This document shows positions 3,729 to 37,223 of a stretch of 64,000 nucleotides of DNA, one piece after another (the first letter of the stretch is position 1; every line of letters begins with the position of its first letter). Under the pieces are notes generated by a model. The model ran no database searches. It saw nothing but the letters and a program-made list of their open reading frames with translations, and was not told where the DNA came from. The DNA lies in assembly GCF_002959915.1 (NCBI RefSeq), contig NZ_PPDE01000005.1:62001-126000 (forward strand), read 5' to 3'. The position numbers were made by a program, and so were the translations under genes. Source of the stretch: Veillonella atypica KON. GTDB lineage: Bacteria > Bacillota > Negativicutes > Veillonellales > Veillonellaceae.

Positions 3729-4514
3729 TTATAGTATAATAGTTTCTCCATCCTCAGGGACTGCTACATGGCTTTCGATATGGGTGCCTTTGATAAATTT
3801 GCGCACATCCTTACGGCTTGTTGCTGTATGATTAACTGTATCCATATGAACAGCGATGATTTTAGCTTCTGGTTTGCGTACTACCATGCGGCCAATATCT
3901 TTTGTACCCATAATAATACTATCTTCAAAGCCTAAAACTTGAGCATATCCAGTGTTCATAATAATAACGTTAGGATCGAAGCGAAGGAGAGCCTTCTCTA
4001 CATCACTTGTCCAAACTGTATCGCCTACAAGGTACACAGTTGGTTCGTCTGCTGCTTCAAAAATAACGCCCATTGCATCGCCTGCTAATGGTGCGAGAAC
4101 TGGATTTGCATACATTTCTATAGTGCCGTGTGAACCACCTGTTTTTCTTAATGTGATACCATTAAACTCAAGACTTTCAAAAATGATGCGTACATCATTA
4201 AAGCCTTGGGAGATAATAAGTTCTTTGTCCGCTGTATTTTGCACAAAAATAGGAAGTGACTTTGGAATAGATTTAATTGCCGTGTCATCCCAATGATCGA
4301 GATGTGTGTGTGTAACTACTACCGCAGTTACATTGCTTAATAGATTGTCCATTGATACAGGTAAATCAACCATAGGCATTCTTTGTTGATAGTTAAATGT
4401 TCCTTCAAAGCCAGGATAAGTATCTTTTGGTGCTAAGAATGGATCAATAAGAAATGTTGTGTTTTTTATTGTTAATTTTCCTGTAGCATTTCTAATGTGA
4501 GTATATTGTGTCAT
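3729..4514 (-). CDS. Metallo-beta-lactamase-fold hydrolase (UlaG-like)
   Basis: A 261-residue soluble protein of the MBL fold. The signature is THTHLDHWD with His69, His71, Asp73 and His74, followed by a GDTVW block and a C-terminal HMDTVNH block, which supply the two-metal site. The closest remembered group is the UlaG / L-ascorbate-6-phosphate lactonase-like or YtnP-like branch, but the substrate cannot be read from the sequence. The start is supported by AAGGAGA nine bases upstream. It is transcribed away from the TetR-family gene across a spacer with two palindromes, so it is the obvious candidate target of that repressor. Confidence 0.8.
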   Translation of the reverse strand: MTQYTHIRNATGKLTIKNTTFLIDPFLAPKDTYPGFEGTFNYQQRMPMVDLPVSMDNLLSNVTAVVVTHTHLDHWDDTAIKSIPKSLPIFVQNTADKELIISQGFNDVRIIFESLEFNGITLRKTGGSHGTIEMYANPVLAPLAGDAMGVIFEAADEPTVYLVGDTVWTSDVEKALLRFDPNVIIMNTGYAQVLGFEDSIIMGTKDIGRMVVRKPEAKIIAVHMDTVNHTATSRKDVRKFIKGTHIESHVAVPEDGETIIL

Positions 4515-34000: not shown

Positions 34001-34786
34001 TCAAACTTGATTATGATTAGTTGGTGTTTTGATGGAACACCACCAATGTCTACGATATGCTTTTATGCCTTCTACAACGGTTTTGCTCGCTTTGGCAGCT
34101 AAATCCTTTGTAGCGGCCGGGATGCCATCAAGGCGGTAAGTGATACCTAATTCCTTGTATTTAGCAACACCCATCACATGATATGGTAAACAGTCGACGG
34201 CTTGTAAGTTGCGGAGTGAGCCTAAGAAAAAGCCTAGCCTATAGTGACGATCTGCGTTGTCTGTAATAGTAGGTACCACCACGTGACGCACCCAAATCGG
34301 CACATTTACATCAGCTGTCAGTTTTGCGAATTGAAGGATTGGTTCTAAAGGCTGTGCGGTTAGCCATTTGTGGACAGTAGGATCGATGTCCTTAATATCC
34401 AAAATGACGAGACTCGTTACACTCAGTAACTTACGGTATGCCACCTCTTGGTGGGGATCAAAACAAATTCCACTTGTATCTAAACAGGTATGGACGTTTC
34501 TTTCACTAAAATATGTGAAAAGCTCGATGACAAAGTCAATTTGCATCAATGCTTCCCCACCTGTGACAGTAATGCCACCGTTCGTATAGAACTGACGGTT
34601 ACGTTCGTATTGCTGCCAAATCTCTTCGACGGTCATAAACTTAGCTTCTTGGCTTTCTTCATTCCACGTGTCTGGATTATGGCAATAGGCACAACGCATG
34701 GGGCATCCTTGAAGAAATACCACCATGCGCATGCCTGGACCATCAACCGTACCCATCGTTTCTAGTGAATGAATACGTCCTGTCAT
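34001..34786 (-). CDS. pflA: Pyruvate formate-lyase-activating enzyme (radical SAM)
   Basis: A 261-residue radical-SAM protein that abstracts hydrogen from the PFL glycine. The Fe-S motif is CPMRCAYCHNPDTW (CX3CX2C) after MVVFLQGC, and the SAM-binding GGEALMQ follows. It is the last gene of the minus-strand cluster pflB, glycyl-radical subunit, pflA, with 12 bases between it and the radical subunit, so all are co-expressed. The C-terminus runs ~15 residues longer than usual. Confidence 0.93.
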   Translation of the reverse strand: MTGRIHSLETMGTVDGPGMRMVVFLQGCPMRCAYCHNPDTWNEESQEAKFMTVEEIWQQYERNRQFYTNGGITVTGGEALMQIDFVIELFTYFSERNVHTCLDTSGICFDPHQEVAYRKLLSVTSLVILDIKDIDPTVHKWLTAQPLEPILQFAKLTADVNVPIWVRHVVVPTITDNADRHYRLGFFLGSLRNLQAVDCLPYHVMGVAKYKELGITYRLDGIPAATKDLAAKASKTVVEGIKAYRRHWWCSIKTPTNHNQV

Positions 34787-34798
34787 AGAAAACCTCGA

Positions 34799-35038
34799 TT
34801 AGATTTGTTGATGGAATGTACGGGAAATAACTTCATCTTGTTGTTGTTTCGTCAATTTGTTGAAGTGTACTGCATAACCAGATACACGAACAGTCAATTG
34901 AGGATACAATTCAGGATGTTTTTGAGCGTCTAACAATGTTTCACGAGTGAACACGTTAACGTTCAAATGGTGACCGCCCTTTTGGGAGTAGCCATCCAAT
35001 AATTCTACCAAGTTATCCACTTGTTGTTGGTTGCTCAT
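34799..35038 (-). CDS. Separate glycyl-radical domain subunit of pyruvate formate-lyase
   Basis: A 79-residue protein equal to the last ~75 residues of a normal [23 protein letters not shown], then [20 protein letters not shown] and a terminal SRTF. The radical glycine is Gly54 in RVSGYAVHF, 25 residues from the end (E. coli PflB: 26). It starts behind AAAGGAGG, 67 bases after the stop of the large PFL gene, so it is independently translated. Sequence and position differ from E. coli GrcA/YfiD, which backs up an intact PflB. Here it is the only copy of the domain at the locus. Confidence 0.9.
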
Positions 35039-35105
35039 GGGTATTCCTCCTTTCAACCAAAATATGAGTATTGATGCCGGTGAAAGCATACAATACGGCG
35101 GAAGA

Positions 35106-37223
35106 TTATTTATCTTCCTCTATAGTAACATTTGGTTCGCTGCAAGCGAAGTTTGTATTGCTGTTAGGCAATTGAGAAGGGTCTAACTCAATATCAAAAT
35201 CGCCTACGGATACAAATGTTTCACCAGATTTACCTAATGCGTCTGGAACGATGGAGAAGGTATTGGAAATACCGTCAGAGCAATCGCGCCATGGCATTTT
35301 TGCAACGGAAGACAACGAAGCTACAGCACCGTGAGAGTCACGACCATGCATAGGGTTAGCACCAGGAGCGAATGCTTGACCAGCCTTACGGCCATCTGGT
35401 GTGGAACCTGTTGCAGTACCATATACTACGTTAGAAGTAATTGTTAACAAGCTCATAGTAGGAACGGATTGACGGTATGTAGGATGTTTACGAACCTTGT
35501 TCATAAATGTGGATACAACCATGGAAGCCAAGCTATCTACACGATCGTCATCGTTACCATATTTAGGGAATTCACCTTCGATTTCGAAATCAACAGCGAT
35601 GCCGTTTTCGTCACGAATAGGTTTTACCTTTGCGTATTTAATAGCGGACAAGGAGTCAGCTACTACGGATAAACCAGCAATGCCAGTTGCGAACCAGCGA
35701 GTTACCTTGCGGTCATGCAATGCCATTTCTAGTTTTTCATAAGCGTATTTATCATGCATGTAGTGAATGATGTTCAATGCGTTTACATATACGCCTGCCA
35801 ACCATTCCATCATGTCGTCGAATTTTTCCCATACTTCGTCAAAGTCTAAGTATTCGGATGTAATAGGGCGGTATTTAGGACCGATTTGTTTCTTAAGTTT
35901 TTCGTCAACGCCGCCGTTGATTGCATAAAGCAAGCATTTTGCTAGGTTAGAACGAGCGCCGAAGAATTGCATTTCTTTACCAATACGCATTGGAGATACG
36001 CAACATGCGATTGCATAGTCATCACCGGAGTTAGGACGCATCAATTCGTCGTTTTCGTATTGGATAGAAGATGTTTCGATAGATAACTTCGCGCAGAAAC
36101 GGCGGAAGCCGATAGGCATGCGAGGGGACCATAATACAGTGAGGTTTGGTTCTGGAGCAGGACCAAGGTTAGTCAATGTATGTAGGTAACGGAAGGACAT
36201 TTTGGAAACCAATGTACGGCCGTCAGTACCCATACCACCGATAGATTCCGTAGTCCAAACAGGGTCGCCTGTGAACAAGTTGTTGTATTCGTGGATACGT
36301 GCAAAGCGAACCATACGCAATTTCATGATGAAATGATCTACGAATTCTTGGATTTGTTCTTCTGTGTATGTGCCGTTGCGAAGGTCGCGTTCAGCGTAGA
36401 TATCGAGGAATGTAGAGTTACGGCCGATGGACATAGCGGCACCATTTTGTTCTTTGATGGCGCCAAGGTAGCCGAAGTAAATCCATTGCATAGCTTCTTT
36501 AACATCTTTAGCTGGTTCGGAAATATCGTAACCATAGGATGCAGCCATTTCTTTCAATTCTTTCAAGGAACGAATTTGTTCTTTGATCTCTTCGCGGTCT
36601 CGGATTATGTCCTCAAGCATATCACCCATAGTGATATTGAATTCTTGGTTTTTCTCTTCGATTAAGTAGTCGATACCATATAGAGCGATACGACGATAGT
36701 CACCGATGATACGGCCACGGCTGTATGCATCTGGCAAACCAGTTACGATGTGTGCTGTACGAGCGGCACGCATTTCTGGAGTGTAAACATCGAATACGCC
36801 GTCATTGTGCGTTTTACGGTGCTTTTTGAAGAAGTCCTCTGTTTGAGGATCCATTTTAAAGCCATATTCTTCAATAGCAGATTTTGCTGTACGAAGGCCG
36901 CCATAAGGGAACATAGCGCGTTTTAGAGGCTTATCAGTTTGTAAACCAACGATTGTTTCAAGGTCTTTGTCGATATATCCTGGCGCATGCGCAGTGATGT
37001 GTGTTGCCACGGAAGTATCGGCATCAAGCATGCCACCTTTTTCGCGTTCTTCTTCGTATAGTTTCATTACCTTGTCCCACAATTTTGTAGTACGTTCTGT
37101 AGGACCAACTAGGAAGGAGTCGTCCCCTTCATAGGGAACATAGTTTCTTTGGATAAAGTCGCGTACGTCAATCGCTTTATCCCACACACCTGTGTTGAAA
37201 TCTTTCCATGCAGTATGTTGCAT
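35106..37223 (-). CDS. pflB: Pyruvate formate-lyase large part, lacking the glycyl-radical domain
   Basis: About 705 residues. It matches PFL throughout, with the catalytic Cys-Cys pair in [13 protein letters not shown] and [20 protein letters not shown] near the end. The chain stops after [15 protein letters not shown] plus ~30 unrelated residues, precisely where a normal PFL continues into the linker and RVSGYAV loop. That missing part is the next gene. Start at 37223 behind GGAGG; 18 upstream codons lack support. It converts pyruvate + CoA to acetyl-CoA + formate, needing assembly with the small subunit. Confidence 0.92.

Follow-up and report, generated by a model that had tools for sequence, protein, structure and literature searches.

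The DNA analysed here, a window of 64,000 nucleotides from Veillonella atypica KON, carries on its minus strand a pyruvate formate-lyase (PFL) locus in which a frame of 705 amino acids (37223..35106) is followed, after a gap of 67 nt, by one of 79 amino acids (35038..34799) and then by pflA (34786..34001). The first gene, denoted pflB-L, encodes the catalytic large subunit and is recognised by TIGR01255 (1103 bits, cut-off 994.2) over model positions 1-664 of 744 and by Pfam, whose PFL-like family covers residues 17-602 and whose Gly_radical family is matched at positions 1-51 of 106 only. It retains the catalytic pair Cys407-Cys408 (36000..36005; 418/419 in E. coli), invariant across the 38 large subunits of alignment A3. 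The second gene, of the grcA3 type, encodes the glycyl-radical subunit, a 79-residue protein that matches Gly_radical at positions 50-106 and TIGR01255 at positions 663-743, passes the GrcA3 model NF038360 (165.3 bits, cut-off 158), and holds the radical glycine, Gly54 (34877-34879; 734 in E. coli), invariant in the 23 sequences of alignment A2. It is read in a different frame from pflB-L and has its own ribosome site, the Shine-Dalgarno sequence AAAGGAGG (35046..35053, minus strand), with a 6/6 match to AGGAGG. The third gene specifies the radical-SAM activase of PFL (TIGR02493, 272.6 bits, cut-off 231.75).

Together the two chains cover the PFL model TIGR01255 without a gap, and the glycyl-radical loop is not in the same polypeptide as the PFL core. 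Aligned to E. coli PflB, the sequence breaks between the positions corresponding to Lys676 and residue 682, the residue offsets being our own arithmetic. A preliminary description of this DNA had proposed a PFL split into two genes at the glycyl-radical domain, with the linker and radical loop on a separate 79-residue gene endowed with its own ribosome site and followed by pflA, and with both catalytic sites kept; the divided Gly_radical match, the coordinates and the two alignments bear this out. The gap between the genes holds a predicted hairpin 3' of the pflB-L stop (35068..35096, minus strand), for which the evidence is modest: a consensus fold of seven Veillonella sequences with compensatory changes in three pairs, most of the stem being absent from L070. 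This predicted hairpin may set the subunit ratio. A CUUCC stretch in the Veillonella gap is also predicted to be able to pair with the Shine-Dalgarno sequence of the small gene. Scans for promoters (8 vs a shuffle mean of 10.2) and terminators (3 vs 2.8) returned about as many as shuffled sequences did.

Conservation of the split locus in the Veillonellaceae

The host genome (G000, an assembly 99.99% complete) yields one PFL-like match and three Gly_radical matches, two of the latter being the halves of the split PFL and the third a frame of 741 amino acids that, from its sequence, is read as a class III ribonucleotide reductase. None of them is an intact PflB, as the preliminary description had it. 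Across the class, NF038360 is passed by 25 of 380 genomes, all 25 in the family of the window, and a stand-alone small gene occurs in 25 of the 28 family genomes (13/14 in the genus, and 6/6, 6/7 and 0/1 in other genera). A PFL-like match is present in 27 of the 28; G353 and G365 lack the split and carry an intact PflB, and G375 has no PFL-like match. In 23 of the 25 split family genomes the 3' end of the large gene was read, and every one of the 23 is truncated. No intact PflB was found in any of the 25 split family genomes, 20 of which have a single PFL-like gene, while five (G354, G356, G359, G371 and G372) have an additional glycyl-radical enzyme of about 850 amino acids (L035-L039), part of which is 22-32% identical to PflB-L. 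By the Nei-Gojobori method, which gives rough values here with dS partly near or above 1, dN/dS for the small gene, the core and the tail of the large one is, in that order, 0.043, 0.035 and 0.118 among eight genus-like sequences and 0.057, 0.044 and 0.228 among 16 family sequences.

These data bear on the most trivial explanation, that an ordinary pflB appears divided through a sequencing or assembly error or has decayed into a pseudogene. A single assembly alone is insufficient to exclude this, but 25 of the 28 family genomes carry the small gene on its own, which means that there is no sequencing error, and the truncated large gene in 23 of the 23 read, purifying selection on both genes, their different frames and the separate ribosome site all speak against it. 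We therefore reject sequencing error and pseudogene alike on the grounds of conservation and purifying selection, leaving this explanation with practically no probability, and the stop at 35106, flagged at the outset as a possible error, is genuine.

Spread and history of the split

The small protein was searched for in the genomes of 84,980 species, and the best 80 of at least 562 relatives, picked by small-gene similarity, were analysed. Fifteen of these loci are from Veillonella and its kin, and the 65 others are mostly from Clostridia (Ruminococcus, other Oscillospiraceae and Lachnospiraceae), with some from Erysipelotrichaceae (e.g. Holdemania). In all 80 the small protein is encoded by its own gene and the large one ends soon after an LGK motif, although a few contigs break off within the large gene. 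Of 391 genomes sampled evenly from the class to which the Ruminococcus genome G386 belongs, at least 23 have a split PFL, of which 21 pass the GrcA3 cut-off and two, with frames of 93-94 amino acids, fall just below it; the other matches among those listed are nearly all frames of about 730 amino acids or more, that is, intact, and a few span 191-633 amino acids. The split also extends to Actinomycetota, Collinsella aerofaciens being annotated with pflB plus grcA3, and the idea of a quirk peculiar to Veillonella was discarded on account of its occurrence in Clostridia, Erysipelotrichaceae and Collinsella. A further glycyl-radical domain outside the Veillonella family, on a frame of 82 amino acids with 119.8 bits to GrcA3 (G087:C59:6042-6269), could be another split or a contig end.

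The Collinsella annotation, and the fact that the Veillonella protein passes a model named for an autonomous glycyl radical cofactor (NF038360), favour taking the small protein at its NCBI name, GrcA3, as a spare-part repair cofactor instead of an obligate subunit. Yet it adjoins a PflB-L devoid of any radical loop, in a genome without an intact PflB, so that there is nothing to repair, and it reaches only 95.8 bits against the E. coli-type GrcA model TIGR04365 (cut-off 170), of which only the C-terminal half is matched. We accordingly hold the repair-cofactor explanation to be improbable.

Neither the exclusivity of the split PFL nor its layout is uniform. A search with PF02901 of 23 genomes drawn from the best 80 loci, one of them V. 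parvula, revealed a second, intact PflB of another type in at least two, so that a split PFL need not be the only one in a genome; G389 has, besides, a fragment at a contig edge. The loci L158 (G381) and L165 (G397) are from Clostridia with both a split PFL and an intact PflB resembling that of G353 and G365. At 55 of the 80 loci a PflA-like gene follows downstream in the same orientation, whereas the other 25, several of which are on short contigs, gave no match; a universally adjacent pflA was therefore discarded. The ribosome site of the small gene has five or six of six matches in 98 of 100 rows, the start having been picked for the best site, and the stop-to-start gap between the large and small genes ranges from -8 to 432 nt (including the mini-gene described below).

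A tree of 66 PFL cores (IQ-TREE in quick mode, SH-aLRT support, 664 columns) requires two changes of the split/intact label, compared to a mean of 19.9 for shuffled labels, and unites 41 split and two intact rows as one set with 96% support. Just outside this set is PDB 38la, whose placement is unsupported in the 66-row tree, while in a 68-row tree a 97% branch leaves it on the intact side; it could represent a basal member, a split of its own or a truncation made in the laboratory. Five rows of the Veillonella family sit, on a long stem, among Clostridia splits, with 98% for the corresponding set of 25 (23 split, two intact), and the intact PflBs of G353 and G365 share a 100% clade with five further sequences, three from other Negativicutes and two from outside that class. 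The PflA of the window is 52-56% identical to the best PflAs of Clostridia split loci, and 46 and 44% identical to those of G353 and G365. This placement of Veillonella PflB-L, taken with the PflA identities, suggests transfer of the split PFL from Clostridia into an ancestor of Veillonella.

The two intact rows nested in the split clade, L167 (G733) and L168 (G729), are without the tail, and no mini-gene was found near either within the stretches fetched (L189 and L190). Their position in the tree suggests one re-fusion, which would mean that the benefit of the split is not universal. Grouping all 42 split rows (38la included) without L167 and L168 is rejected (p-AU 4e-9), the group having been seen before the test; several independent splits instead of a single one are formally conceivable.

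The apparent re-fusion is one of the observations that suit a neutral rearrangement, in which the radical subunit would stay bound for life, never be exchanged, and new enzyme would be made after oxygen damage. Gaps of -8 to 432 nt likewise suggest no tightly tuned arrangement, and the split is found in anaerobes that, from general knowledge, may rarely meet oxygen. Selection is suggested, on the other side, by the wide spread of the split in Clostridia, Erysipelotrichaceae, Veillonella and Collinsella and its persistence within the family, and by the good ribosome site of the small gene (with the proviso on start choice given above) and the conserved tail. We consider neutrality less likely than not.

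The tail of the large subunit and a third gene

Where the preliminary description saw some 30 unrelated residues at the end of the large gene, there are in fact 40 (residues 666-705; 35109..35228, minus strand), which follow the LGK at the end of the PFL core, and they are conserved in three genera, with a dN/dS of 0.12-0.23. The first of two motifs, GDFDIEL (residues 674-680; 35184..35204), conforms to a pattern, [GS]D[LIFPV][DETSA] after LGK, present in 94 of 100 rows (rows that overlap in organisms), and its Asp675 is at least 90% conserved in alignment A3. As a universal feature of the tails the GD motif was dismissed, since several of the 23 tails of a second sample, inspected by eye, are without it. 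The second, ACSEPN (residues 693-698; 35130..35147), reflects the AC.EPN in which tails of the Veillonella family terminate, and a similar cysteine motif is found on a separate mini-gene in many Clostridia. Conservation across genera and a common motif in the alignment led us to reject the tail as random filler. In an AlphaFold model of PflB-L of mediocre quality (mean pLDDT 68.3, pTM 0.71), residues 648-705 are below 50. A link between the GD motif of the tail and the GDIE at residue 50 of E. coli GrcA is only an idea.

In many Clostridia, a gap of 188-432 nt between the large and small genes encodes an extra small protein of about 50-85 amino acids (start codons being uncertain). This mini-gene occurs in 51 of the best 80 loci (L079:4727-4978, L090:4746-4970, L101:4681-4887 and 48 more among L079-L143). 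The first 30 residues of its product copy the start of the radical subunit, the glycyl loop being absent, and a cysteine motif closes the protein, its C and P being invariant in the 27 sequences of alignment A1. Of seven mini-proteins scanned, two match NF038360 (L079, E = 8.3e-5; L090, E = 1.5e-4) and the other five do not, nor does any Pfam family score above its cut-off for the seven; a profile-profile comparison with the radical subunit gives a probability of 94.5% (E = 7.9e-8, 32 columns). The dN/dS of the mini-gene is 0.04-0.17 in four small sets with 1-6 usable pairs each, and its structure model is poor (58.1).

A cysteine is present in the tail at all 29 loci without a mini-gene and at none of the 51 with one (Fisher 1.9e-22, kinship ignored); on the tree this amounts to six changes and to three independent, well-supported pairs, all concordant (sign test 0.25). 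Tails from loci without a mini-gene are longer, so that a cysteine would arise in them more readily by chance, yet their alignment shows a shared motif. In the second sample of 23 genomes, which overlaps the first (G386 holds L092, and G664, with the same tail as L084, is probably also shared), the ten genomes with a mini-gene have no tail cysteine, and the 13 without it comprise nine with a tail cysteine and four with neither; Collinsella, too, has neither. A strict either/or rule is thereby rejected: the two were never observed together (0/51 and 0/10), and most loci have one of them, but some do without both. A model of the mini-protein scores at least 50 bits in ten of the 391 genomes, all among the 23 split ones and adjoining the radical gene, with two matches crossing a stop codon, and no mini-gene was found near 11 intact loci in the 5-7.5 kb fetched per locus. 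Variant layouts are seen in L234 (G553:C60:51000-54469), where the mini-gene follows the radical gene rather than preceding it, and in L236 (Subdoligranulum variabile), where frame 3967-4459, in an unusual layout, has a weak match (33.6 bits) and is possibly a disrupted mini-gene.

The tail of the large subunit in Veillonella thus includes a piece encoded elsewhere as a separate protein. What the separate protein might do can be sketched speculatively, in a proposal that we consider more doubtful than probable: it would add a third function to core and radical domain, as a dummy radical domain built from the N-terminal docking half of the radical subunit, with a cysteine motif in place of the glycyl loop. 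It would fill the seat of the radical subunit whenever the latter is missing, damaged or away being activated, and by blocking the cysteines of the active site it would keep the enzyme in a form suited to storage or safe from oxygen; Veillonella would keep only its cysteine motif, fused as the ACSEPN tail.

A two-subunit enzyme and its known counterparts

Two conserved cistrons, both catalytic residues, purifying selection and the lack of an intact PflB in the genome lead one to expect a heteromer, and to this extent the interpretation in the preliminary description stands, whereas the tail, the spread and the third gene had escaped it. The reading that we favour, with a probability of about 0.82, is an obligately two-subunit PFL made of PflB-L and the 79-residue radical subunit and served by PflA; gene structure, conservation, PflB absence, selection and phylogeny are its observed basis, from which we infer complex formation, activity and the role of the tail. 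PflB-L would provide the barrel and the two catalytic cysteines, and the small subunit the linker helix, the docking strand and the glycyl-radical loop. The activase PflA would generate the radical at Gly54, most likely while the small subunit is docked, and this glycine would then take a hydrogen from Cys408. In the E. coli enzyme, Gly734 abstracts the hydrogen of Cys419. The tail of PflB-L most likely helps to seat or shield the separate radical subunit, perhaps in place of the covalent tether or by guarding an open active site. Oxygen would cut only the 9-kDa subunit, and a fresh copy could replace the damaged one; such exchange after oxygen damage is plausible, at roughly even odds.

Experiments in E. 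coli speak to the feasibility of such an enzyme. According to one study, a truncated PFL from which residues 696-759 were removed has, with YfiD, wild-type activity once activated, activation being poor; docking is aided by YfiD residues 1-60 and PFL residues 696-733, and PFL without residues 696-733 shows weaker YfiD binding and activation (PMC8683613). The split enzyme must therefore have solved docking otherwise. In vivo, a PflB G734A variant yields intermediate formate levels with GrcA and none without it, according to another report (PMC12338860). A radical domain supplied in trans is thus sufficient both chemically and physiologically. In Veillonella dispar, pflB transcription rises in stationary phase, according to a paper (PMC10100942) whose text does not contain 'grcA'; a pflB is, then, used there.

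Some of this system is already known, as witnessed by the NCBI GrcA3 model, the Collinsella annotation and the truncated PFLs in the PDB, from which it is evident that some group is working on truncated PFLs; the third, mini-gene is the least-known part. No account of a natural split PFL, and no mention of 'GrcA3', is found among the matches listed in the open-access literature, and the natural split is not described in the available portions of PMC13252398, PMC11528403 and PMC12288474. In E. coli and T4, a spare-part radical domain serves for emergency repair. Here, the same idea would become the standard architecture of an enzyme central to fermentation in widespread anaerobes of gut and mouth, with an undescribed third gene added to the system, and we suggest that GrcA3 is better described as a subunit. 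Annotation pipelines or metabolic models that expect PflB at full length, or that count GrcA among the stress proteins, may misinterpret such genomes, and natural two-chain enzymes would allow direct measurement of the docking, activation and exchange of a glycyl-radical domain.

With E. coli PflB (1h16/2pfl, TIGR01255), the Veillonella enzyme shares the core sequence, the cysteine pair, the RVSGYAV loop and the activase, and the predicted large subunit best matches 2pfl_A (Z 45.5, rmsd 3.4, 621 residues); E. coli PflB, however, is one chain of 759 residues, whereas in Veillonella there are two genes, divided after the equivalent of Lys676, and a new tail. The highest-scoring solved relatives of the large subunit are PDB 38la (687 amino acids) and 38lb (739 amino acids), both named 'Formate acetyltransferase' and both, like PflB-L, without the radical loop; 38la ends at LGKE, while 38lb, which groups with Collinsella (98% support), continues in a tail. 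For the small protein, the 34 sequences matched include no chain of 38la or 38lb. As a stand-alone glycyl-radical domain it is akin to GrcA (YfiD) of E. coli and Y06I of phage T4, which work in trans with PFL and PflA (PMC8683613); GrcA-like proteins are common enough in phages that 1532 of 50,697 phage records, by name mostly of enteric phages, match E. coli GrcA. But E. coli GrcA has 127 amino acids, with an extra N-terminal half, and is encoded between eamB and ung, away from pflB and beside an intact PflB, whereas the Veillonella protein of 79 residues is the only PFL radical domain of its genome and is encoded in the operon of a truncated PflB. It is a member of GrcA3 (NF038360), and while that name implies an autonomous cofactor, the genomic context argues for an obligate subunit. 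A further parallel is the E. coli pair of truncated PFL (tPFL) and YfiD (PMC8683613), again a truncated PFL with a radical domain in trans and active once activated. That tPFL is a poorly activated laboratory construct, and it extends about 20 residues beyond the Veillonella break; the natural split, unlike tPFL, puts the linker helix on the radical subunit and adds a tail to the large one.
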